The position numbers were made by a program, and so were the translations under genes. Shown here piece by piece: positions 1,160-21,107 of a stretch of 23,720 nt of DNA (the stretch's first letter is position 1; each line of letters opens with the position of its first letter). The notes under the pieces were generated by a model. It was not told where the DNA came from and did not search any database. It saw only the letters and a program-made list of their open reading frames with translations. Where the stretch lies: positions 1-23,720 of the IMG/VR virus record IMGVR_UViG_3300025168_000681; one strand, 5' to 3'. This DNA comes from a virus.

Positions 1160-4100
1160 ATGGCTCAGACATATACCAGACAAAGTTCATTAGCTGATGG
1201 CGATACTATCACCGCTGCTCTTTTTAATAATGAATACAACCAACTCTTAAACGCTTTTGCTTACTCTTCAAGCAGCGCAGATTCTACAGGTCATAGACAT
1301 GATGGTACTGCGGGGCAAGGCGGTAACATACACACTATAGGCGATATAGACTTTTTAAATAAGATAGTTGCTGATAGTACAAACAATAGATGGGGAGTAT
1401 ATGTAGAAGTATCGAGTGCGGCTGTAGAACAAATACGCATACAAGACGGAGCTATTGTTCCTGTTACAGATAACGATATTGATTTAGGCACAAGCTCTCT
1501 AGAATTTAAAGATGCTTACTTTGATGGCACAGTAACTTCTGATGCCTTTGCAGGGCCATTAACAGGAAACGTTACAGGAAACGTTGCAGGGAACGTTACA
1601 GGGAACGTAACTGGAACAGCGGCTACTGTAACTACTGCTGCTCAATCTAATATAACTTCATTAGGAACGTTAACAACTTTAACAGTCGATAATGTTATAG
1701 TTAACGGAACAACTATTGGACATACATCAGACACTGATTTAATGACACTATCAAGCGGTGTATTAACAGTAGCAGGAGAAGTAGACGCAATAAGTTTAGA
1801 CATTAGCGGTGACGCAGATATTGATGGTACTCTTGAAGCTGATGCTATTACAATAGGTGGTGTTACATTAGCAGAAACAATTAGTGATACTGTAGGAGCT
1901 ATGGTTAGCTCGAATACTGAAACAAATATAACTGTAACTTATGAGGATAGTGATAATACATTAGACTTTGTAATAGGTACTCTTAATCAAGATACTTCTG
2001 GAACAGCAGCACTAGCAACAACAGTTACATTATCTGCAAACAACAGCACAGACGAAACTATATTTCCAGTTTTTGTTGATGGGGCTACAGGAACTCAAGG
2101 ATTAGAAACTGATACAGGATTTACTTATAACCCAAGTTCAGGCAAATTAACTGCTACAGAATTTGTAGGTAACATAGATGCTGTAGACGGAGACTTTGAC
2201 GGTACGCTTGAAACAGACGCACTATCTATAGGTGGAACAACAGTTACGTCAACTGCTGCAGAGCTAAATATATTAGATGGTGTTACTTCCACAGCATCAG
2301 AACTTAACATTTTAGACGGAGTTACATCTACTTTTACAGAGCTTAATCTTCTTGATGGAGTTACAAGCACCACGGCAGAGTTAAACATTCTTGATGGCGT
2401 TACAAGCACCGCAGCAGAACTTAACATTCTTGACGGAGTTACAAGTACCGCAGCAGAATTAAATATTCTTGACGGGGTAACTAGCACCTTTACTGAACTT
2501 AACTTACTTGATGGTGTTACTAGCACTACAGAAGAGTTAAACATTTTGGATGGTGTTACAGCTAGTGCAGCAGACATTAATCTTATAGATGGAATAACAA
2601 ACGGAACTGTTATAGCAAGTAAAGCTCTTATAGCTGATGCAAATATTGATATTACTGGTGGTAGACATATTACTATTAGTGGTGAACTAGATGCTGCAAC
2701 CTTAGACATATCAGGTGATGCAGACATAGACGGAACTTTAGAAGCTGATGCAATTACAGTTAACGGTACAGCTTTGGCAAGTGTTATTGCAGGAACTACA
2801 GTAGCAAATGCAACATTATCTGCTACAACTACAGTCACAGATAGCACAGCTAACACTAACTTTCCTGTAATATTTCATGATGAATCTAATGCTTTACTAG
2901 ACGATACAGGAGCATTAAGATATAATCCTAGTACAGGACAACTATTAGTACCTAACCTTACTGTAGCAGGAACAACTACTACAGTAGATACAGTTACTAT
3001 GGAAGCTTCAAATGCAATTATATTTGAAGGAGCTACAGCAGATGCCCATGAAACTACATTAACTGTAATTGATCCAACAGGAGATAGAACAATAGGATTA
3101 CCAAATGTATCTGGTACTCTTCCAGTTCTAGCTGCTGCATCAACTACACAGATTAGTTCTACACCAGAAGAAATTAATATCCTGGATGGAGTTACCTCAA
3201 CTACAGCAGAATTAAATATACTTGATGGTGTAACAAGCACAGCAGCAGAATTAAATATACTTGATGGGGTTACAAGTACCGCAGCAGAATTAAATATACT
3301 TGATGGGGTTACAAGTACCGCAGCAGAATTAAATATACTTGATGGGGTTACTTCAACTGCTGCAGAAATTAACATTTTAGATGGTGTAACTAGCACCTTT
3401 ACTGAACTTAACTTACTTGACGGCGTTACAAGCACAACAGCAGAACTGAACATCCTAGATGGAGTGACATCAACTGCCGCAGAACTTAACATCTTAGACG
3501 GTGTGACAAGCACAGCAGGTGAATTAAATCTTATTGATGGTGGAGCAACAGTAGGAACAACTGCTGTAGCAGATGGTGATGGTATTCTTCATAATGATGC
3601 AGGTACTATGAAAGTTACAAGTGCCGCTACCTTTAAAACATATTTTCAAGCAGGACTATCAAGTGCAGCAGATGATATAGCAGCAGGGGATGCTGCAATA
3701 AACATAACAACAAGCTCAGGAAACATTACAATAGATGCAGCTGCTAATGATAGTGATATAATATTCAAAGGAACAGATGCTACTGCTGATATTACCATGC
3801 TTACACTTGACGGTTCAGACGCAGGCTCAGCTGCTTTTAACGATAAAGTTACTATCGGCGACGGCAAATTAGTTCTTAACTCAACTGCTGTCACTTCAAC
3901 TGGCGCAGAGTTAAACATACTAGACGGAGTTACGTCAACTACTGCAGAGCTAAACATATTAGACGGAGTAACTTCTACAGCTGCTGAATTAAATATTCTT
4001 GACGGAGTAACGTCAACTGCCGCAGAACTAAACATTCTTGATGGAGTTACCTCTACAGCCGCAGAGTTAAATATCCTAGATGGTGTGACAAGTACTGCAG

Positions 4101-4303
4101 CAGAGTTAAACATTATAGATGGCAATACAAGTGCTACTTCTACAACTCTTGCAGATGCAGATAGAATTGTTGTAAACGATAACGGAACTATGGTTCAAGT
4201 AGCTTTAACTGATGTAGACGCTAGAGACTTTGCAATAGTAACTTCAGCACCTTCAGGCGATCAGTCAGCTAAGAAAACTGGTTTTGTTTGGTACGTTGTA
4301 TAA
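1160..4303 (+). CDS. Repeat-rich tail fibre protein
   Basis: A 1047-residue fibre protein, inferred to bind the host surface. The N-terminal part carries HRHDGTAGQGGNIHTIGDI (46-64), DNDIDLGTSSLEFKDAYFDG (104-123) and a GNVTGN tract near 135-152, all typical in style of marine phage fibres. It then has three clusters of a 13-residue repeat (consensus TAAELNILDGVTS): 9 copies at residues 365-481, 10 at 668-797 and 6 at 914-991. Linkers between clusters also repeat: the segment LDISGDADIDGTLEADAIT occurs twice, near residues 213 and 515. The C-terminus is short and ends in WYVV, with no chaperone domain recognised. The ATG at 1160 follows GGGAGA and sits 3 bases after the preceding stop. Whether it is the main receptor-binding fibre or a side fibre cannot be told. 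Long antisense frames across the repeats are shadows of its codon pattern. Confidence 0.85.
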   Translation: MAQTYTRQSSLADGDTITAALFNNEYNQLLNAFAYSSSSADSTGHRHDGTAGQGGNIHTIGDIDFLNKIVADSTNNRWGVYVEVSSAAVEQIRIQDGAIVPVTDNDIDLGTSSLEFKDAYFDGTVTSDAFAGPLTGNVTGNVAGNVTGNVTGTAATVTTAAQSNITSLGTLTTLTVDNVIVNGTTIGHTSDTDLMTLSSGVLTVAGEVDAISLDISGDADIDGTLEADAITIGGVTLAETISDTVGAMVSSNTETNITVTYEDSDNTLDFVIGTLNQDTSGTAALATTVTLSANNSTDETIFPVFVDGATGTQGLETDTGFTYNPSSGKLTATEFVGNIDAVDGDFDGTLETDALSIGGTTVTSTAAELNILDGVTSTASELNILDGVTSTFTELNLLDGVTSTTAELNILDGVTSTAAELNILDGVTSTAAELNILDGVTSTFTELNLLDGVTSTTEELNILDGVTASAADINLIDGITNGTVIASKALIADANIDITGGRHITISGELDAATLDISGDADIDGTLEADAITVNGTALASVIAGTTVANATLSATTTVTDSTANTNFPVIFHDESNALLDDTGALRYNPSTGQLLVPNLTVAGTTTTVDTVTMEASNAIIFEGATADAHETTLTVIDPTGDRTIGLPNVSGTLPVLAAASTTQISSTPEEINILDGVTSTTAELNILDGVTSTAAELNILDGVTSTAAELNILDGVTSTAAELNILDGVTSTAAEINILDGVTSTFTELNLLDGVTSTTAELNILDGVTSTAAELNILDGVTSTAGELNLIDGGATVGTTAVADGDGILHNDAGTMKVTSAATFKTYFQAGLSSAADDIAAGDAAINITTSSGNITIDAAANDSDIIFKGTDATADITMLTLDGSDAGSAAFNDKVTIGDGKLVLNSTAVTSTGAELNILDGVTSTTAELNILDGVTSTAAELNILDGVTSTAAELNILDGVTSTAAELNILDGVTSTAAELNIIDGNTSATSTTLADADRIVVNDNGTMVQVALTDVDARDFAIVTSAPSGDQSAKKTGFVWYVV
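2252..2602 (+). repeat. Fibre repeat cluster 1: nine 39-bp units
   Basis: Nine in-frame units of 39 bp encode 13-residue repeats. Units 3 and 7 are the TFTELNLLDGVTS variant. The last unit is SAADINLIDGITN, where the usual ILDG or LLDG becomes LIDG. DNA differs between units mostly at synonymous positions. Confidence 0.95.
3161..3550 (+). repeat. Fibre repeat cluster 2: ten 39-bp units
   Basis: Ten in-frame 39-bp units. Units 3 (3239-3277) and 4 (3278-3316) differ by one base and unit 5 is close to them, which looks like recent tandem duplication; the other units have drifted at synonymous sites. The first unit is TPEEINILDGVTS and the last is TAGELNLIDGGAT, again with LIDG. Confidence 0.95.
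3899..4132 (+). repeat. Fibre repeat cluster 3: six 39-bp units
   Basis: Six in-frame 39-bp units running from TGAELNILDGVTS to TAAELNIIDGNTS. The last unit again replaces ILDG, this time with IIDG. The units keep the protein consensus while using different synonymous codons. Confidence 0.95.
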
Positions 4304-4318
4304 TACAAGGAATAGATA

Positions 4319-5287
4319 ATGGGTATTAGAGTATGGGATGGTGATTCGATTGAAACACCTGATCCAATTTTAGTAAAAGTAACAAACGGAAATTTACGAT
4401 TTGTAAACTATGCTGTTGTTTTAGAAACAGATGGTTCTTTAACTACTTTCTTTGACGCTATACGGGCTACAACTAGAGATACTGCAACAACTAAAACTAC
4501 ATCAACTGGCGGCACTACAAACACTACTACAACTTATAATACAACACTTGCTACAGCCACAACTAGAGCTACTGCAACAACTAGAAGCACTACAACAACT
4601 TTTAATACTACAACAACCTATAACACTACAACAACTTTTAATACAACTAAAAGTACTGGAACAAGTCATAGTACTACAACAAGTTACAACACTACTAGAT
4701 CTACTACAACAAGTTATAATACTACAAGATCTACTACAACAAGTTATAATACTACAAGATCTACTGCTACGGCTGCAACAATTAACACTACAACTAGCTA
4801 TGTAACCGGCCCTTACGGTAAACAAAATAATTTCCGTAATACAAGCCATACTACAACAACAAGTGGAACAACAAATACTACTACAACTTTTGGTACTTCA
4901 AAATCTACTACAACAACCTTCGGTACTTCAAAATCTACTACAACAACCTTTGGCACTTCAAAATCTACTACAACAAGTTATAATACTACAACAACTTATG
5001 CTACAACTAGAGCTACATCTACAAGTAAAAGCACCGCAACAACTCTTTCTACTACAACAACTTTTAATACAACAACAACTTTTAATACTACAACAACTTT
5101 TTCTACAACAAAAACTACAGCTACAGATGCGTCAGTAAATACTACTACAACTTTTAATACGTCAACAGCAATATTTGTAAGAGTAACTGCTACAGGAAAT
5201 ACTGGATCAGTTTTTGATACAGAAGTAGGTTCAGCAGGCGCGCATAATGCTCGTTATTGGGATGGAGATTCTTGGGAAGAAGGTTAA
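4319..5287 (+). CDS. Threonine-rich repeat protein, probable fibre or tail-tip accessory
   Basis: A 322-residue protein of unknown family. Residues 1-50 and about 288-322 are ordinary sequence, and both ends carry the same WDGDS motif (6-10 and 314-318). Between them, residues about 51-287 are mostly Thr with Ser, Asn and Ala, built from a 6-residue block such as TTTTFN or TTTSYN and a 4-residue block such as TTRS or TSKS. Because blocks are even in length, nearly all Phe, Tyr, Arg, Lys and Leu residues share one parity of position, which suggests a two-faced extended beta structure. A short break, GPYGKQNNFRN, interrupts the tract around residues 164-174 without changing the parity. AAGG lies 8 bases before the ATG. 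Position directly after the fibre gene suggests a virion surface role. No signal peptide or enzyme motif is seen. Confidence 0.7.
   Translation: MGIRVWDGDSIETPDPILVKVTNGNLRFVNYAVVLETDGSLTTFFDAIRATTRDTATTKTTSTGGTTNTTTTYNTTLATATTRATATTRSTTTTFNTTTTYNTTTTFNTTKSTGTSHSTTTSYNTTRSTTTSYNTTRSTTTSYNTTRSTATAATINTTTSYVTGPYGKQNNFRNTSHTTTTSGTTNTTTTFGTSKSTTTTFGTSKSTTTTFGTSKSTTTSYNTTTTYATTRATSTSKSTATTLSTTTTFNTTTTFNTTTTFSTTKTTATDASVNTTTTFNTSTAIFVRVTATGNTGSVFDTEVGSAGAHNARYWDGDSWEEG
4469..5179 (+). repeat. Low-complexity ACN-rich tract with near-exact 30-bp tandem units
   Basis: The DNA is a degenerate array of Thr codons (mostly ACA and ACT). Two sub-arrays are nearly exact at 30 bp: one encoding TTTSYNTTRS around 4670-4765 (about three copies) and one encoding TTTTFGTSKS around 4880-4975 (three copies). 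Such tracts can gain or lose units by slippage or recombination while staying in frame, because each unit is a multiple of three. Confidence 0.85.
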
Positions 5288-12337: not shown

Positions 12338-12904
12338 ATGGCCGAACCAACTTATGACAGAGCAGGACTAGAACACTTAGCTACATCAGGTGCGCCTATA
12401 CCTGGACAGTCTTTAACAAACAATCCAGATAACCCTCAACCCTTTGAACAAAAACCACAGTTTACTTCTATACAGCCTGCTTTAGATACTGTTTTTTTAG
12501 AAATAACAGAACCTGAAACATATCATAGTTTAATGAAACTAATGAGAGAAGGCGTGCCTATAGGACAGCTTACTGACATTATTATTTATAAAGGGTTCTC
12601 TGCAGGGCTATGGAATCCTGACTTAGCTATGATGCTTCTAGAGCCTGTAATGTACATGTTAATTGCAATAGCTACACACGGGGGTATTGATGAGCCTGTT
12701 ATTGATGATGACGAAGATACTATGGATGATACAGAACAATTAAGCGAGCTGCAAAAAGCTATGGAAGCAGCAAAAGATAAAGTTATTCCTAAATTAAAAA
12801 CATCAGGAGTTCCTAGAGAAATACAAAAACGTGTAGAACAACTAGACATTCCTAAAGAACCTGTAGAAGCTTCTAGTCTACTAAGCAAAGAGGTACAAGC
12901 ATAA
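12338..12904 (+). CDS. Conserved-style marine phage virion-associated protein, unknown function
   Basis: A 188-residue protein. The N-terminus is Pro-rich and flexible: PIPGQSLTNNPDNPQPFEQK (21-40). The middle is folded and helical, with EPETYHSLMKLMREGVPIGQ and GFSAGLWNPDLAMMLLEPV. It continues into a hydrophobic helix (MYMLIAIATHGGI), an acidic patch (DDDEDTMDD) and a charged C-terminal helix. I recall similar proteins with the PIPGQSL and GLWNPDL features between internal virion genes in marine phages, but I cannot name a family. AAGGAA precedes the ATG. The stop overlaps the next start as TAATG, which implies coupled translation with the large protein that follows. It could be a chaperone, scaffold or minor head component. 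Confidence 0.65.
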   Translation: MAEPTYDRAGLEHLATSGAPIPGQSLTNNPDNPQPFEQKPQFTSIQPALDTVFLEITEPETYHSLMKLMREGVPIGQLTDIIIYKGFSAGLWNPDLAMMLLEPVMYMLIAIATHGGIDEPVIDDDEDTMDDTEQLSELQKAMEAAKDKVIPKLKTSGVPREIQKRVEQLDIPKEPVEASSLLSKEVQA

Positions 12905-15144
12905 TGGCTATTTCAACAACAGGAGATCCTGGCATACAAAAAATAGTAGGTGACTCACAGAAAAGACTAGCAAAGGCTAGAAAAAAAGGTCAGTACTTAA
13001 ATAAAATTGTAGCTATTGGAGAAGGAACAAACCGAGTATTAACAGCTAAAGCAACTAAAAGAGCGCAGGAATTTTGGAATAGTGATGCGGCTGAGCTTAA
13101 TAAAATGCAAGACTTTGTAGATACTTCTATTCAGTTTCAAGATGATTTTGCTAAAAGATTTAAAGGCGATCCTAATTGGGAACAACAATATGTAAATGAT
13201 TTTATGAACACTTATGTTGATAATAAATTAACTAACACAACAGGTATTAGTAACGAAGCTAAAAAGGCTTTATTTGCCCAAGCAAAAATAGATGTTCAAG
13301 ATGATTTATCTGCTTTTAAAAATATGTTAAATCTTTCTTCAGAGTTTAAATTAGACGGAACTATGACAGCAGAAAAAAAACAAGCACAATACTTTAAAGC
13401 CTATCAAGATCCTAAATCAAAACGTTCTAGACAAATTATTGCAAACGGTAGTCTTATTCCTACAGGGTTAAGGCTTTTAGGTCTACGGAAAGAAGACGCA
13501 GAAGGTACTCCTGAAGAACAAGCTATGCAAACTTTTATAGACTCAACCTTTGCTCAACAAACAAAATGGAATGCTGCTACTCAAGATTTTGATACTGCTA
13601 TAGGAAATAACGAAATTCAAGACATGTTTATGGTAACAGAAAATTCAGTTAAACTTAATGAAGTAATAGGTCAAATGAATACTGAAGCAGCTTTAATGAA
13701 AGATCCAAATAAACACAAAGAAAATGATTTTATGCAAATGGCTATACCTTACGGAGATGCTGAAGGAAACATAAAAGGAACTACATCTTTGTTTAGTGTT
13801 GTTAAACAATTAAGCGCTGAGGATAGAGACCCAACAACAGGTGGTCAAAACAATCTTTCTACAAGAGGAAAATTTATACAAGACGCACAAATTATAGCTT
13901 CTTCTAATTGGCATAAATATAAAGAAGCTTATAAATCAGGTGATCCTCTTTATCTTAAAACAGATTTTATGAAAGACGCTGTTGTGACACTTACTAGATC
14001 AGGTAACTTACAGGGAGTAACGCCTAAAGTTCCATCTTGGTACAGCCGAGGCTCAGCAACATATACTAAATTGGATCCTGAGCAAATGGGTAGGCATATA
14101 GCAGCGCCTCTAGATTCTAAATATACAGGAAACTTTACTGCTGACCAAGCAAAAAGATATAATGCTGTGCTTAACGGAGACACAATAACACAGCTGTCAG
14201 AAAACTATGCAAATACTACCTCAAACGCAGATGCTTTTAATTCTGAAATAAACTTTAGAATTAGGAGTGTTAGAGACGGTACTGTTACTCTTACAAAAGA
14301 AATGATAGACGCTGAACTAAGTAGGTATAGTTCTGCTCAAAGCATTAACGCAGACGAATACAAAGAACTTTTAAAAGAAAAAATGATAGATGCTCCTAAT
14401 GCCTTAGCTTTAGAAATGCAAACGTCTTTTGAACAAACAGAAGAACAAAAGTTAAATGTTTTATCTATGGAGTTTTTTGGAGTACCTGATTATCTTGATC
14501 TAACACAAACACAATTAAAAACAATTAAAAACCCTACTAAAAGAATTTCTGAATTAAAAGAAAAAATAGAAGACCTTTATAAAGTTAAGGATATCTCTTT
14601 TCCAAATATAGGAAGGAGCGTTACTTTATTAGATTTATATGACTCTACTTTAGAGCCTGATATAATGTTTAATAAAAAGGTAGAGCCAATTTTAAATAAA
14701 GCTGGCGAAAAAATGGGCGGACATATATATGACGATCTAGGAGATCAAAGTGGTATAGATACAAGTTTCGGAAGATTTTTTCAAGACGATGCTGAGCTTA
14801 CTACTAGAGAAATAAACACACTAAACGAAACAGCAAATAATACACCTTATAAAGTAGCTAACGAATGGTGGAACTCTCAAAAGCCTCCAGTGTCTTTAAA
14901 CAGACCAAATGATATAGCTTCTTGGTTATTTAAAAACCCTTCTTTTTTAGATGATTTTGACAAAGCGGGAAACGATCCTGTTAAATTTATGTATGCAATT
15001 ACAGGTAAAGAAATGCCACAAGCAACTATTGATATAGTGTCTGGAAAAGCCAGAGAGATGCGACATAACATAATAGACGAAAAAACCGGAAGACACCAAG
15101 ACGCTGCGGGCGGGTACGTTAGTTTACTATCAAGGCCTGAATAA
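12904..15144 (+). CDS. Large internal virion protein candidate (gp15-like by position)
   Basis: A 746-residue protein without a recognised domain. It is mostly soluble and helical, with a basic N-terminus (QKRLAKARKKGQYLNKI, 19-35) and Asp/Glu/Lys-rich helices throughout. There is no signal peptide, membrane segment or evident catalytic motif. Its start overlaps the previous stop and its stop overlaps the next start (both TAATG), so it sits in a tightly coupled block with the 188- and 1987-residue proteins. T7 gp15 is 747 residues long and precedes gp16, so length and order match well, although no sequence similarity can be claimed by eye. The likely role is a tube component of the ejectosome that crosses the periplasm during DNA entry. 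Confidence 0.55.
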   Translation: MAISTTGDPGIQKIVGDSQKRLAKARKKGQYLNKIVAIGEGTNRVLTAKATKRAQEFWNSDAAELNKMQDFVDTSIQFQDDFAKRFKGDPNWEQQYVNDFMNTYVDNKLTNTTGISNEAKKALFAQAKIDVQDDLSAFKNMLNLSSEFKLDGTMTAEKKQAQYFKAYQDPKSKRSRQIIANGSLIPTGLRLLGLRKEDAEGTPEEQAMQTFIDSTFAQQTKWNAATQDFDTAIGNNEIQDMFMVTENSVKLNEVIGQMNTEAALMKDPNKHKENDFMQMAIPYGDAEGNIKGTTSLFSVVKQLSAEDRDPTTGGQNNLSTRGKFIQDAQIIASSNWHKYKEAYKSGDPLYLKTDFMKDAVVTLTRSGNLQGVTPKVPSWYSRGSATYTKLDPEQMGRHIAAPLDSKYTGNFTADQAKRYNAVLNGDTITQLSENYANTTSNADAFNSEINFRIRSVRDGTVTLTKEMIDAELSRYSSAQSINADEYKELLKEKMIDAPNALALEMQTSFEQTEEQKLNVLSMEFFGVPDYLDLTQTQLKTIKNPTKRISELKEKIEDLYKVKDISFPNIGRSVTLLDLYDSTLEPDIMFNKKVEPILNKAGEKMGGHIYDDLGDQSGIDTSFGRFFQDDAELTTREINTLNETANNTPYKVANEWWNSQKPPVSLNRPNDIASWLFKNPSFLDDFDKAGNDPVKFMYAITGKEMPQATIDIVSGKAREMRHNIIDEKTGRHQDAAGGYVSLLSRPE

Positions 15145-18100
15145 TGGCAATCTCTAATAATCCTACTACTTTTGATTGGGTAAGTTTTAAAGAAAAAAAT
15201 CCTGAGTTGTGGAATCAAACTGAAGAAGACAGGAGAAAAAAACAAGAAGCTGCTAGGCAACAAGCGGCTTTAGAGAATATTAATATTCCTACTTCTTCTG
15301 AACCTGCTAACGATCCTATAGCCCAACAAATCCAAAAAACTTCTTCTTATGATTCTTGGGCTAAAGAATCAAATAATTATGATGATGATCCCGTAGGCCG
15401 TCTACTACACGAAAACCAAACTAGAGAAAATAATTTAAATAATGAAAGAAAAAAATCTTATGAAAACTATAATAAAGATGAAGAGTTTAGTTTAAATGAT
15501 TTAGACGATGACTCAACTTATCAAAAAGTAGCTATGCGTTATTTAAAATCTATAACAAGTACTGAAAATATTTATGAAAATTTAAGAGATGCTAAATACA
15601 GCATAGGCGATGCAGCTATGTTAGCTTATCGTTCTGGTAAATATGATGAACAAACTAAAGCTGATTATAAATATTTAAAAGAACTTTTTGATAAAGCAGA
15701 TACAGGCGGGGCAGAACATGTTCTTCAAGCTACTAAAGATATTGCTGTAGATCTTATTTTTGATTTACCTAATCTTTTAGCTGTTCCTTTTATTATATCT
15801 TCAGGAGGCGCAGTAGGATTAGGACTAAGTGCTGCTGCTAAGTTTGGAGCAACTCAGGCTTTTAGACAAGCTTCTAAAAAAGCAGGCCAAGAGTTTGCTA
15901 AGAAAAAAGGATTAAGAACTGTCAGTATAGGTATGACTGAAGGAGCTTATGACGGTGGTGTTATTAGTATGTCTAATCAAATTAGTGATGTACAAACAGG
16001 CATACGTCAAGACTATAGCGCAGGACAGGTTGCTTTAATAACAGGAGGCTCTGCTATCGCAGGCGGTTTAATAACAGGCGCAGGAGTTCAATTAGGTAAT
16101 GCTTTACATAGAAGAAACGTAAATAAATATGTACAAGAAAGCGGATTACCTAGAGAACAAATTCAAGACGCTGCTCCTGAACAAGTTAGAAAATGGAGGC
16201 AGGATGCTCGCGTTTATAATAATCTTATGGATTCTATTATAGGCCCTGTTAGTCAAATTACAAGTAAAGCAACCAGCCCTTATCAAAGATTAGCAGAACG
16301 TTCAGGTACTCTAGAAGAACTATTATTAAATGTACGGCATGATGCTATGCGCAGAATAACAGATAAAGGTCTTGATCCAATAGCTAGTGCAGCCTTTGGT
16401 GGCTCAGTAACTGCCAGACAATCTAATTATATTATGCTTATGCAAAAAGCCATGAGTAATCTATCAGGCAGAAGACAAAAATTAAACCCTCAAGACAATA
16501 ACGATCTTTTATACTTGCTTAGTAAAAATATTAATATAGATGAATATGTTAAATTAATAAAAGTTAAAAAAGAAGGCCGAGATGATTATGAAATACTTGG
16601 AAGAGTTGTTAGAGACAATAGAGAACTATCTCCAGAAGTTTTAAAAGCTGCTAAAGGAATAAAAGATGCTTTTGATAAGATATGGAAAGACGGGTTAGCT
16701 ATTGAAAGAGTAGGTGGTAAAAAAGCAGGAGACGTAGTAGATCTTTTTAAAAACTCTCAACAACGTATTGCTCATTACTTTCCTAGACACTGGAAGATAG
16801 ATGTAGTAGAAGAAAAACGAGATATTTTAGAAGACCTGTTAGTAGATTCTACACTCACAGATATGCGTTTAGAAAAAACTACTAAAGCTAAAATGATAGA
16901 TGATGGATTAGAAGATGGTTTAGATATTCCAGATGCTAACTTAGTTCTTATAGGGAGAAACGATAAGCCTGTAGATATAAAAACTATAGATCAACATTCT
17001 TTTGGAAACGTAATTGATCCCGCTACAGATAGACCTTTTCTTGAAAAGTTTGACGGTTTTGAAGACATGGCTTTAGAGTCTATAAAGAAAAAATATAATC
17101 TTAAAAATATTAAAACTAAAAAAGAATTATTAGAATTTGATCCAACCATAGCAGGCGAGTTTAGGTTAACAGCTAAAAAGTTTAAAGCTAAAGTAATAGT
17201 ACAACAAATGCTTAACAGAAAAAGCCCTAAATATAAAAATCTTAATACTGCTAACGCAGGTTTAGGAGGAAATGCTTTTACAAGAGAAAGAGCTTTTTCA
17301 GAACTTGACGACGTAGACTTACAAAAGCATGGTTTTGTTAATACAGATGTAATGGAAATTGTTCAAAACTATTCTGTAAGCATGTCTAAATCTATAGAAC
17401 GAGCTAAGTTTTTTGGAAGAAGCGAAGGTGACTTCCGTGATAATTTTATAAATCCTATTCTAAACGAACTAGAAGAAAGCGGTAAAAAATTAACAACAAA
17501 ACAACAAGATAAATTAGTTAAGGATTTAACTAAATTATATAAAGTAACTACAGGTTTAGAAAACAGCGTACCTTCTAGTCCTGTTGTTAAAACTTTAACA
17601 GATGTAATTAAAGTATCACAACAATTAGCTCATTTACCTTTTGCTACTTTGTCTAGTATATCAGAACCTTTTATTGCTTTATCAAGAGCTGATCTTCCAG
17701 ACACAAACGCTTTTGTTACAGAGTTTGCTAAGGCTGGTGGAAGAGTAGCTAGAAAAAACTTTGGACAGCTCTTTGATACTATGAAAAATATAACAGGCAA
17801 GGATACTCGTTTGTTTAAAGAACTAGATGATGAAACTTTTTATGATGTTTATCAAGCAGGCGTAGCTACAGAAAACGCTATGATGGATCGTATTGAAGGT
17901 ATGTACGGAGAAGGTTTAAATTCAGGAATAGCTAAAAATATTTCTAATGCCTTTTTTAATATAAACTTATTACAGCCGTGGACACAAGCAGTACAAATGG
18001 GAGCGTTTAAATTTGGTCAACAAAAAGTAATTAGAATACTTGGTGAACTAAATGACAACACAAATTTTTACGGTTCTACATTAAACGCTAGAGGAGTACA

Positions 18101-21100
18101 ACGTAGAAAAAATGAACTACATCAAATAGGCATAGATTCAGAAGAAGGACTATCTGCATATAAAAGACACGTAGATAAAGATGGTAATTTTAATGAAGCA
18201 ACCTTTAGGCAAGGTAAGTTTTTTGATTCTCAAGTAACACCCGGTACAGCTATGTTCTCTAGGGAAATTATTCTTAATCCTTCAGCAGCAGAAGGGAATA
18301 AACCTTTATGGTTTAATAACTGGTGGGCGCAGGTGCTTGTACAATTTGCAGGATACCCTACAGCTTTCAACAACACAGTATTAAAAGGCATGGCAAGAAG
18401 TGCTATTAGTGATCCTATAGCTAACGTACCTAAAGTACTTGCTGCTACAACTATGATGACAGGCGTAGCTGTAATGACTAATGCTATTAGAAGTGAAGGC
18501 AGAAGTATTACAGAAGCAGAGAGTGATGTAAGAATAGTAGCAGACGCTGTTAGAAGATGGGGAGGCTATGGCCCTTTTGATTATGTACATAGATTTTTAG
18601 AAGGCTCTAAAAGAAATAGCGGTAATATAACAGCATTATTGAAAGCCCCTACAGGCCCTATTGTTTCAGATGGTTTAGATATGGTTTTATATAGACAAGG
18701 AATATTTGAAGTAGGTGTACAAAACTTACCTGGATATTCTGCTTATCCTAAAGAAATGAGACAAAGCTTAAGGGGATGGGCTAAAGGTATGTTTAAAGAA
18801 GACAAGTCTACTTATACACCTTTTGCTGAAGGAGGAGAAGTTACCGCTTCTTTAGAGCAAGATGAAATATATGCTTTTTTAACTAGAGATGAAAATGAAT
18901 ATCAAACGGATGACAGTAAACCTATATCTTTATATAAAGAAAAAGATTTACCAGACCTTGATATAAAAGATACGTTCTACATAAACTTAAAAGGTTTTAC
19001 AGTTGCTGATAAACTAGATGCTTATCGAAGGTCAAGCACTATTGGTGTGCCTGTTTATAAAGCTAAAGGTAGAGGTAACGTATCAGGAAAAATTAAATTT
19101 AATAAAGTATTAGAATTAGATATTGAGTCCGCTACAATAGAATCAGTACAACAAAGCATAAATAAAAACAAAGATAAAATAATTTATACAGACGAAGTAA
19201 TTGCTAAAGAAATTATTAAGGAAACAGATTATCAGCTTACTCTTAGAGATGATGTACTTAGAGATGATCCTAATAAAACAAGCAACAAAATAAGTATGAT
19301 TGAAAAAAGTAAAAGTTTTTTAGTTAGGAATGAAATACTTAAACTAGGCTATGATGCTATTAAGACTAAACAAGGCTATACATTACTTAGAGAGAATCAA
19401 TTTTTACCTATAGATATTATAGACAGAAGACAACCAGTATTTATAGGAGGTGTAGTAGAAAAAATTAGAGGCTTCTTAGGCGCGCTTTTAAGAAGATCTA
19501 AACGTACAGTAAGCAGGGCTGAAACAAAAATAGAAGATGTACAATATAAAACAAAAGACGCTGTATTAATAGGTGGGCCATACCAAGCTGTTCCTAGAGA
19601 TGTAGTAACTGATAAAAAAATATTACCTAAACTATTTAGAGATAAGCTAAGAGATAGTGAAAGCTCTGGAGACTATAGAGTTATAAATAATTTAGGATAT
19701 ATGGGTGCGTATCAGTTTGGTAATCCTAGATTAACAGATTATAAAAGAGTTAATAAAAAACAATTTACTAATGAAGAATTTGTAGCAGATAACAAATTAC
19801 AAGATGAAGTATTTGACTGGCACGTTAACGATATTAGAAAAGGAATTAAAAGAAATAAACTAGATCAATACATAGGGCAAAAAATTAAAGGGATACCTGT
19901 AACTGAACAAGGAATGGTAGCTGCGGCTCACTTAGGAGGCTTTACAGGCATGAAAAACTTTATAACAAATTTAGGTGAAAACAATACGGATAAAGATGAT
20001 GGAGTAACTTATCTATCTGACTACTTAGATAAATTTAAACATACTAGATTTGAAAGAGAAAGTTACAACGACGGTAATCTTGTTTCTAGGTTACGAAAAA
20101 AAGTTAAAAAAGTTACTAGAGATAACATTCCACTTGAGTATAGAACATATATTGATAAAGTTGTTATGAAAAATAAAGATAATTTTACTGAAAAAAATAT
20201 GACTCCTGATGAATTAAAAACTTATCAAACAGAAATGAAAGAGTTTATTAGAAGAGAAATAAAAAACGGAAATTTATTTATTAGTAATGATGGAGAATTA
20301 AAATCAAAAGAAAGTGCAGATGGTGTTAAAGGCCCAAAAACTACAGGATATTTTCCTACTTTAGCTTGGAATAATCGAAATTTATTTCATACTTTTGGAA
20401 CTTCTGCTTTAAATATTAATCCAAAAAATCAAAATGTTAAAATGGTAGACAAATACAATTTTAGATTTAATGAAACTCTTACAGGAGGGCTTCAAGAAGG
20501 AAGCGGAGGCTTTACAAAAGAAAATATAAATGCATATTTAAAAGCTGGAAGATTAACAGCAGAGGATAGAAAAAAGAAAGTTACTCAAGTTACAGATAAA
20601 TTTTTTCCTAAAGAAAATACAGAGGAAGACGCTTCTGTTACTTGGGGTACAAAACCAACCAGTCTAAATCTTATGGCTATGGCAGAAAGATATGGAGCAT
20701 ATAACCTGCCTGATGAATATACTGCTAAAAATATAAATAAAGAACGAGCTAACGAAGGATTACCTCCAGAAGACTTTCCTGAAATTAATTTAAATGTTAA
20801 TACAAGTCTTGGTTTTAAAGATAAAGAATGGGCTTTATTAATGAAACAAGCAGAAGCAAATAATGTCCGCGATCAATACGGCCGCCGCTATGCTGAAAAA
20901 GAGATAGCGGAAGCATCTGCTGCTGGATTGGATCCAAAATACTTTATGAATAGTGATACTGGTGGTAATTACATTCCGACAAATTGGATAGATGACACCC
21001 CTAACGCAGGTATGGTGACATCCTCTAAACAAACAAAGAAAAAAACTGCTCCTAAACTATCAAAGGAAGAAATGTCTTATTTTTTTAATAGCAATACAGA

Positions 21101-21107
21101 TGACTAA
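15144..21107 (+). CDS. Giant internal/ejection protein with lytic transglycosylase domain (gp16-like)
   Basis: A 1987-residue protein, longer than T7 gp16 (about 1318). Residues 1-180 are charged and probably flexible. Hydrophobic segments lie at 201-233 and about 292-320. The helical middle includes QPWTQAVQMGAFKFGQQ (near 945), NNWWAQVLVQFAGYPTAFNN (near 1055) and a hydrophobic stretch near 1096-1115. Residues about 1230-1430 form an unassigned region. A lysozyme-fold lytic transglycosylase lies at about 1500-1630, with DSESSGDY (E1506 the likely catalytic acid), NNLGYMGAYQFG, AAAHLGGFTGM and SDYLDKF. In T7 gp16 the transglycosylase is at the N-terminus, so the domain order differs. The last 340 residues are unassigned. 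The expected role is ejection into the cell with local cell-wall opening. Its start overlaps the previous stop. Confidence 0.8.
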   Translation: MAISNNPTTFDWVSFKEKNPELWNQTEEDRRKKQEAARQQAALENINIPTSSEPANDPIAQQIQKTSSYDSWAKESNNYDDDPVGRLLHENQTRENNLNNERKKSYENYNKDEEFSLNDLDDDSTYQKVAMRYLKSITSTENIYENLRDAKYSIGDAAMLAYRSGKYDEQTKADYKYLKELFDKADTGGAEHVLQATKDIAVDLIFDLPNLLAVPFIISSGGAVGLGLSAAAKFGATQAFRQASKKAGQEFAKKKGLRTVSIGMTEGAYDGGVISMSNQISDVQTGIRQDYSAGQVALITGGSAIAGGLITGAGVQLGNALHRRNVNKYVQESGLPREQIQDAAPEQVRKWRQDARVYNNLMDSIIGPVSQITSKATSPYQRLAERSGTLEELLLNVRHDAMRRITDKGLDPIASAAFGGSVTARQSNYIMLMQKAMSNLSGRRQKLNPQDNNDLLYLLSKNINIDEYVKLIKVKKEGRDDYEILGRVVRDNRELSPEVLKAAKGIKDAFDKIWKDGLAIERVGGKKAGDVVDLFKNSQQRIAHYFPRHWKIDVVEEKRDILEDLLVDSTLTDMRLEKTTKAKMIDDGLEDGLDIPDANLVLIGRNDKPVDIKTIDQHSFGNVIDPATDRPFLEKFDGFEDMALESIKKKYNLKNIKTKKELLEFDPTIAGEFRLTAKKFKAKVIVQQMLNRKSPKYKNLNTANAGLGGNAFTRERAFSELDDVDLQKHGFVNTDVMEIVQNYSVSMSKSIERAKFFGRSEGDFRDNFINPILNELEESGKKLTTKQQDKLVKDLTKLYKVTTGLENSVPSSPVVKTLTDVIKVSQQLAHLPFATLSSISEPFIALSRADLPDTNAFVTEFAKAGGRVARKNFGQLFDTMKNITGKDTRLFKELDDETFYDVYQAGVATENAMMDRIEGMYGEGLNSGIAKNISNAFFNINLLQPWTQAVQMGAFKFGQQKVIRILGELNDNTNFYGSTLNARGVQRRKNELHQIGIDSEEGLSAYKRHVDKDGNFNEATFRQGKFFDSQVTPGTAMFSREIILNPSAAEGNKPLWFNNWWAQVLVQFAGYPTAFNNTVLKGMARSAISDPIANVPKVLAATTMMTGVAVMTNAIRSEGRSITEAESDVRIVADAVRRWGGYGPFDYVHRFLEGSKRNSGNITALLKAPTGPIVSDGLDMVLYRQGIFEVGVQNLPGYSAYPKEMRQSLRGWAKGMFKEDKSTYTPFAEGGEVTASLEQDEIYAFLTRDENEYQTDDSKPISLYKEKDLPDLDIKDTFYINLKGFTVADKLDAYRRSSTIGVPVYKAKGRGNVSGKIKFNKVLELDIESATIESVQQSINKNKDKIIYTDEVIAKEIIKETDYQLTLRDDVLRDDPNKTSNKISMIEKSKSFLVRNEILKLGYDAIKTKQGYTLLRENQFLPIDIIDRRQPVFIGGVVEKIRGFLGALLRRSKRTVSRAETKIEDVQYKTKDAVLIGGPYQAVPRDVVTDKKILPKLFRDKLRDSESSGDYRVINNLGYMGAYQFGNPRLTDYKRVNKKQFTNEEFVADNKLQDEVFDWHVNDIRKGIKRNKLDQYIGQKIKGIPVTEQGMVAAAHLGGFTGMKNFITNLGENNTDKDDGVTYLSDYLDKFKHTRFERESYNDGNLVSRLRKKVKKVTRDNIPLEYRTYIDKVVMKNKDNFTEKNMTPDELKTYQTEMKEFIRREIKNGNLFISNDGELKSKESADGVKGPKTTGYFPTLAWNNRNLFHTFGTSALNINPKNQNVKMVDKYNFRFNETLTGGLQEGSGGFTKENINAYLKAGRLTAEDRKKKVTQVTDKFFPKENTEEDASVTWGTKPTSLNLMAMAERYGAYNLPDEYTAKNINKERANEGLPPEDFPEINLNVNTSLGFKDKEWALLMKQAEANNVRDQYGRRYAEKEIAEASAAGLDPKYFMNSDTGGNYIPTNWIDDTPNAGMVTSSKQTKKKTAPKLSKEEMSYFFNSNTDD
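18962..19435 (+). other. Unassigned domain in the giant protein, possible ADP-ribosyltransferase-like fold
   Basis: This segment of about 158 residues (around 1274-1430) lies between the membrane-active middle and the transglycosylase. It has a strand-rich start (DTFYINLKGFT), KFNKVLELDIE, and later RNEILKLGYDAIKTKQGYTL and ENQFLPIDIIDRR. The pattern LGYDAI, a strand, then NQ-hydrophobic-x-hydrophobic recalls the C-terminal half of ADP-ribosyltransferase-like domains in phage polyvalent proteins. No confident NAD-binding or catalytic motif is visible, so it may be something else. Confidence 0.25.
19641..20036 (+). other. Lytic transglycosylase domain within the giant protein
   Basis: The domain reads from DKLRDSESSGDY to LSDYLDKF. 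It has the Glu-Ser pair followed by a Tyr, a Gly-x-x-Gly-Ala-Tyr-Gln-Phe segment that takes the place of the GAxGxMQ block of SLT domains, a conserved AAHLGG stretch and the closing TYLSDYLDKF. These are standard positions for goose-lysozyme-like transglycosylases that cleave the MurNAc-GlcNAc bond with formation of the 1,6-anhydro end. Confidence 0.8.

Follow-up and report, generated by a model that had tools for sequence, protein, structure and literature searches.

A divergent ADP-ribosyltransferase-like domain, probably non-catalytic, in the tail of a presumed gp16-like ejection protein from an HMO-2011-type marine phage

Fusions of ADP-ribosyltransferases (ARTs) to virion proteins have been recognized in sequences, those of polyvalent proteins, and in T4 Alt. 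T7 gp16 is not known to contain an ART-fold module. This protein has an N-terminal transglycosylase and is modelled to span the periplasm, the inner membrane, and the cytoplasm after ejection (PMC8954989). The ARTs already published from phage polyvalent proteins are of the H-Y-D type, with the Asp in strand 5 (Iyer et al., PMC5512222), and head-packaged ARTs are also in print (PMC9503650). AcrIF11 proteins, which are small stand-alone enzymes with a variable helical region, lose activity in the mutants H20A/Y46A and D146A/E147A, and the structure 8dwq, deposited as "H3 protein," is AcrIF11Pae2 (PMC12421852). The closest structural counterpart of the domain described here is a region of 9k3a_B, a chain that corresponds by sequence to ORF27 of Anabaena phage A-4L (cyanophage A4 pre-ejectosome). 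This region (about residues 1418-1608; L156:20350-21072) reads LYHGT...GTYFS...DGDTTLVINPD and matches the ART-PolyVal family PF18760 weakly, below cut-off (13.1 bits, E 0.0035 in one genome). A-4L ORF27 is annotated "tail protein" and one of its relatives "ParB-like partition nuclease"; an FHGT motif is kept by its relatives in Pf-WMP3, Cyanophage PP, and Lbo-JY12. A literature search by title revealed no ART domain in a gp16-like ejection protein, although the A4 structure paper (PNAS 2025) may describe the domain. No paper was found with both pre-ejectosome and ADP-ribosyl, the matches listed for the HMO-2011-type and pelagiphage literature contained no mention of ARTs, and the term "ADP-ribosyl" is absent from the text of the phage PhiM1 ejectosome paper (PMC11440229).

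We analyzed an IMG/VR virus record of 23,720 bases, the whole of which is referred to below as the window. The features discussed are as follows.

12338-12904, plus strand: 188-aa ORF, homologue of HTVC104P gp56 (BLASTP, 34% identity, E 5e-34), marking the common gene order
12904-15144, plus strand: 746-aa ORF directly upstream of the giant, presumed from its order and size to encode a second ejection protein
15144-21107, plus strand: giant protein of 1987 aa, presumed gp16-like ejection protein (open ORF, PHROG matches, core relatives, gene order)
17184-18707, plus strand: conserved core part of the giant, residues 681-1188 (phrog_7348, E 3e-51; phrog_6958, E 2.2e-18 over residues 735-1108)
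18822-18845, plus strand: FAEGGEVT stretch just ahead of the domain, a GG-containing motif common in these tails (motif count)
18855-19424, plus strand: accessory domain of the giant with a predicted ART fold, residues about 1238-1427 (alignment A8, AlphaFold2 model, VIA, Foldseek)
19344-19421, plus strand: most conserved C-terminal hairpin of the domain, LGYDAIKTKQGYTLLRENQFLPIDII, residues 1401-1426 (Asp1404 and Gln1419 invariant in the 14 covering rows)
19632-20030, plus strand: peptidoglycan-hydrolase-like segment of the giant, residues 1497-1629, downstream of the ART-like domain (PHROG)

By sequence, the window is similar to marine phages of the HMO-2011 type. The tail protein encoded at the left end shares 43-45% identity with its counterparts in the Pelagibacter phages HTVC103P, HTVC104P, and HTVC115P and 37% with that of HMO-2011, and four of the eight window ORFs tested match HTVC104P proteins in the same order. 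The giant sits after these ORFs, at the place occupied in HTVC104P by gp54. As its match to gp54 is weak (E 0.008, and none in a BLAST run with a low-complexity filter), this equivalence rests on position and size. For the 746-aa ORF, PHROG yielded nothing at E <= 0.1, and none of the HTVC104P or HMO-2011 proteins compared with it by BLAST matched. In the middle of the giant, the PHROG matches carry the labels endolysin and virion structural protein; segment 1497-1629 farther on, for which Pfam yielded no match, is similar to phrog_26675 (endolysin, E 4.1e-7) and phrog_27932 (baseplate hub and tail lysozyme, E 3.6e-5). We presume that the giant is gp16-like from its position and modules, by analogy with T7 gp16 (PMC8954989): both are large proteins that follow other presumed ejection genes and carry a peptidoglycan-hydrolase-like module. 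However, the transglycosylase of T7 gp16 is N-terminal, whereas the hydrolase-like and ART-like modules of the giant are C-terminal. Elsewhere in the window, a 322-aa ORF in the tail region (4319-5287) consists mostly of Thr/Ser-rich repeats such as TTTTSYNTTRST, and a 1047-aa ORF (1160-4303), whose residues 5-133 match an HTVC104P structural protein, contains many copies of a TAELNILDGVTST-like repeat.

A sequence-only reading of the window had drawn attention to positions 18962-19435 for two peptides recalling the C-terminal half of ART-like domains. Both are real, in frame, and within that interval: LGYDAIKTKQGYTL corresponds to residues 1401-1414 (19344-19385) and ENQFLPIDII to residues 1417-1426 (19392-19421). 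They belong to a conserved domain and are not chance peptides. The interval itself needs revision, as the domain is wider (18855-19424) and 18962 is not the start of a codon. The domain recurs in other IMG/VR contigs at 78-80, 71-73, 52-57, and 37-40% identity, the last value being that of L022, and profiles recovered more distant relatives at 23-28% identity. A scan for the conserved core of the giant added the carriers L081-L085 and L087 (E about 1e-32). L146 was retrieved with the HMM of the window family (E 2e-4 among 81 proteins), and L048 is a partial relative; L052 and L053 were dropped as unrelated matches. In genome contigs, a profile scan with alignment A2 found no relative and one with the core of the giant found a single Pelagibacter MAG contig. 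The resulting alignment of domain relatives, A8, has 15 rows, among which L032, L082, and L081 are near-copies of L030 and L084, and the partial rows L036 and L046, from the same contig, are treated as separate. L150, which has the L146 sequence with a frameshift inside the domain, was excluded; its L146-type ART-like domain is split either by a sequencing error or by decay. With a dN/dS of about 0.28-0.32 in all four pairs computed, the domain evolves under purifying selection.

The AlphaFold2 model of the domain built from the 15-row alignment reached a pLDDT of 87.8 and a pTM of 0.84. A good model was obtained only once L146, L048, and L084-like rows had joined the alignment; an earlier one from eight rows was poor (pLDDT 60.4) and is not used as evidence, its only ART in the rows shown being 9k3a_B over a wider range at Z 3.9. 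The best VIA match of the 15-row model was 9k3a_B, residues 1418-1608 (Z 7.0, rmsd 4.3 over 135 residues). Other matches were AcrIF11 (6kyf, Z 4.7 over 112; 8dwq, Z 3.4), tankyrase (4mt9, Z 4.4; 3udd, Z 4.0), and MbcT (6fkg, Z 3.7) and NatT (8qnl, Z 3.3; 8qnq, Z 3.2), which we take to be ART-fold proteins acting on NAD. ART-fold chains account for 8 of the 50 listed VIA rows, 9k3a_B and seven chains in four groups, and occupy ranks 1-3. Foldseek placed 9k3a_B first (E 0.036, rmsd 12.3) and 8dwq second (E 0.075, rmsd 8.7), a ranking not fully independent of that of VIA, because VIA re-aligns Foldseek's own candidates. These scores are middling, with Foldseek E-values above 0.01 and Z below 8, and a Z under 8 can mean a common arrangement. 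Helical bundles make up much of both lists, and we attributed such matches (designed coiled coils, CCM3, vinculin) to the helical part of the domain. As the best match is a region that itself carries ART motifs, with AcrIF11, tankyrase, MbcT, and NatT coming next, an ART-like fold with a beta-sandwich core is moderately supported by the model. Structure prediction and Foldseek, proposed by the sequence-only reading as a check, thus gave an ART-like fold, Foldseek ranks 1 and 2 both being ARTs; the resemblance holds at the level of the predicted fold, but it spans the whole domain and is not confined to a C-terminal half.

Like its best structural match in A-4L ORF27, the domain is a module close to the C-terminal end of an ejection-complex protein (a presumed one in the window) from a podovirus and shows, by eye, a long, apparently helical stretch ahead of the last core strands. 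No sequence-profile similarity was found between the two regions, and A-4L ORF27, unlike the window domain with its lack of His, retains LYHGT and GTYFS. A variable helical region is also shared with the AcrIF11 proteins (PMC12421852), two of which (6KYF, a structure containing NAD, and 8DWQ) are structural matches. However, these are stand-alone small enzymes, whereas the window domain is devoid of His and of any AcrIF11 family match (NCBIfam AcrIF11, window protein, none at E <= 1).

Related giants carry several C-terminal accessories, of which this domain is one. The relatives of the core that were kept, 80 viral loci of the 160 core relatives and one MAG locus, were grouped with the window into 37 clusters (90% identity). 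The protein ends at most 177 aa past the conserved core segment in 17 of these, and the rest have longer tails. Nine clusters carry the window-type domain, which begins about 215-390 aa from the first residue of the core segment; this is not a prevalence, because domain carriers were used to build the query and the 160 relatives were cut to 80. The modules downstream of the domain vary: the window has the endolysin-like segment, L146 has LysM (E 3.3e-8), and L084 has an SLT match below threshold. In L083, the window-type domain (1139-1336) is followed by a second ART at about 1832-1990, which matches ART-PolyVal (PF18760) with 35.4 bits, over the 31.2 cut-off, and in which LFHGS, GLYFT, and EYNIMNP provide the His, Tyr, and Glu.

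Several other tails have a recognizable look by eye. That of L020 resembles a cell-wall hydrolase. Those of L093 (residue 976 on) and L144 (residue 1347 on) contain ART-like HGG segments, which Pfam's ART model does not match. The tails of L021 and HTVC104P gp54 (L157:4564-9480) share a methyltransferase-like segment (DYGSG/DFGSG), possibly another swapped module. Pfam found nothing in the tail of L094 and nothing beyond chance in that of L079. A short pattern, [FYLMVI]xxGG[VLIEKQFMAR], mostly [YF]-[AS]-[KE]-G-G-x-V, is present at residues 1230 and 1435 of the window protein and in the tails of relatives L075-L155. Across 36 representative tails (12,390 aa, cluster L145 omitted, rows related) we counted 66 copies, compared with a mean of 12.1 and a maximum of 21 in 200 shuffles, and in 39,600 aa of core we counted 72, here without shuffle control. 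Our impression is that it is placed near module borders.

The 195 residues of the window domain contain no His. The register of strand 1 is ambiguous: the profile alignment, which equates it with the LYHGT region, points to SLYKE, whereas the structural ranges point to TFYIN. These ranges give first and last residues only, model residue 34 lying against chain residue 1418 of 9k3a_B and model residue 28 against residue 5 of 8dwq. In either candidate column (1265 or 1280), none of the 13 rows has a His; L016 has one at the adjoining column 1264, in this single row. An Arg occupies a candidate strand-1 column in one of the 13 rows (L146) and not in the window, which thus lacks the strand-1 Arg of the T4 Alt-type R-S-E site. 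For the Tyr of strand 2, whose register is likewise ambiguous, the candidates are Tyr1279 (Y or F in all 13 rows) and Tyr1305 (Y/T/S). Conservation is strict further on: no change is seen in any of the 14 rows at Asp1404 (within G-[YF]-D-[AS]-[IV]), Gln1419, Lys1390, or Ser1391. At position 1410, before the last core strand, the window has Gln, and the rows have Glu (8/14) or else N, Q, or G. Asp1404 could provide the acidic residue of an H-Y-D site.

The window domain is, on these residues, probably non-catalytic. The missing His is by itself no proof of inactivity, and since Asp1404 may be the strand-5 Asp, we call the domain probably and not certainly inactive. The invariance of this Asp leaves room for unusual chemistry, and ART-fold RES toxins and R-S-E ARTs use residues other than His. 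The domain could accordingly be an active, unconventional ART or NAD-consuming enzyme relying on Asp1404 and non-His residues, one that enters the host to act on its proteins or NAD at an early stage of infection. The hairpin surrounding Asp1404 is the most conserved part of the domain, MbcT and NatT are among the structural matches, and the tail of L083 contains, besides the window-type domain, an ART that keeps His, Tyr, and Glu. Conversely, the domain has no His, Arg appears in a candidate strand-1 column in that single row only, the residue before the last core strand varies (E, Q, N, or G, with Q in the window), and the peptidoglycan-related modules downstream in the window and L146 would suggest a periplasmic setting with little NAD. 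We regard such an enzyme as unlikely. The suggestion made from the sequence that the phage delivers an enzyme modifying host proteins finds no support for the window protein, whose ART-like domain has neither the His nor a conserved substitute.

Sequence comparisons bear on whether the ART likeness could be coincidental, the domain being an unrelated alpha/beta fold with a structural part in the ejection protein. Searches of Pfam, PHROGs, and PDB sequences with the window domain and protein returned nothing significant for the domain, and its versions from the window, L022, L030, and L146 had no match at E <= 1 among 50,697 phage records. L048, searched up to E 5, and L084 had one match each at E 1, taken as chance, and a Pfam match to Bcr-Abl_Oligo (E 0.06 for the window, 0.0098 for the best of five members, below cut-off) was discarded as a helical chance match. 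PF18760 matched none of six records (the window and five relatives) at E <= 10. It did match L146 inside the same domain (positions 55-133, 16.6 bits for a cut-off of 31.2, E 1.2e-4 for one record), in a search where two of the 14 control genomes also gave sub-threshold matches. Against a reference set of ART-PolyVal domains from eight named phages, the hhalign score of the window family including L146 was 24.5 (best of 150 column shuffles, 21.2). It was 17.9 without L146, a value reached by a fraction of 0.020 of 150 shuffles, and 30.1 for L146 alone, reached by none of 150.

Along the giant, a sliding test with ART-PolyVal alone and without L146 did not single out the domain (15.9 vs 16.4 elsewhere), and none of the eight best sliding windows overlapped it when the window sequence was used by itself. 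With cyanophage ARTs alone, neither the family nor L146 rose above background scores. With a combined ART profile and without L146, the sliding windows overlapping the domain ranked 1-5 of 36 (18.0-16.2; next, 15.5), these five overlapping one another and so not being independent; L146 alone scored only 18.1 against this profile. Profile support for the ART likeness is thus moderate, and the sequence link between the domain and ARTs depends largely on L146 as a bridge. In alignments with ART-PolyVal (PF18760), as found in the vRNAP of Roseovarius Plymouth podovirus 1, the order of core elements is the same, including G-Y-D-[GA] followed by a hydrophobic strand, and in both cases the domain is embedded in a giant phage protein. 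In contrast to ART-PolyVal, the window domain has no PF18760 match, no strand-1 His, and an extra helical insert of about 60 residues by eye. An unrelated fold would be in keeping with the lack of a significant sequence-family match, with Foldseek E-values above 0.01 in a list crowded by helical bundles, and with profile tests that, apart from the combined profile, are weak or unspecific without L146. It accounts poorly for ARTs at VIA ranks 1-3 and Foldseek ranks 1-2 with further ART groups lower, for the bridge from L146 to PF18760, and for the preference of the combined profile for the domain within the giant, and we consider it quite improbable. Finally, it is very doubtful that the domain is a decoy or sponge, an inactive ART binding NAD, ADP-ribose, or an ART target and blunting host NAD-based defence at entry: purifying selection and invariant C-terminal hairpin residues would fit a retained binding site, and NAD/ADP-ribose proteins have been argued to be frequently packaged in virions (PMC9503650), but plain folding constraint accounts for the same conservation.

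We find it fairly probable that residues 1238-1427 form a divergent ART-fold module which most likely does not process NAD and has a structural or binding role within the gp16-like ejection protein of a marine podovirus resembling HMO-2011. The giant would be packaged and ejected, as expected for the family and by analogy with T7 gp16, and the domain, located in its variable C-terminal tail, would travel with it. Having apparently lost the strand-1 histidine needed by H-Y-D/E ARTs, with no obvious conserved substitute, the domain would most likely no longer process NAD. Most likely it would serve, in a structural or binding capacity, as a folded unit set between the core and the modules that follow, some of them related to peptidoglycan. 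Placed in this way in the window and L146, the ART-like module may come to lie in the periplasm, a compartment poor in NAD, which would fit the loss of catalysis. A structural role agrees with the A4 pre-ejectosome, in which the similar module was sufficiently ordered for model building.

A broader suggestion, which we consider unlikely as it stands, is that ejection proteins of marine podoviruses harbor a lineage of ART folds, either motif-bearing (L083, A-4L) or His-less (the window family), that ceased to be enzymes and became components of the ejection machine or binders countering NAD-based defence at entry. If so, the module of the A4 pre-ejectosome would be a structural view of this class inside the virion. 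The question is open to testing, since the window domain has a resolved counterpart in the cyanophage A4 pre-ejectosome and motif-bearing and motif-less versions exist in similar contexts. If our preferred reading of the window domain is true, a conserved, His-less ART fold in an ejection protein would mean that this fold is also kept for a purpose other than classical ADP-ribosylation.
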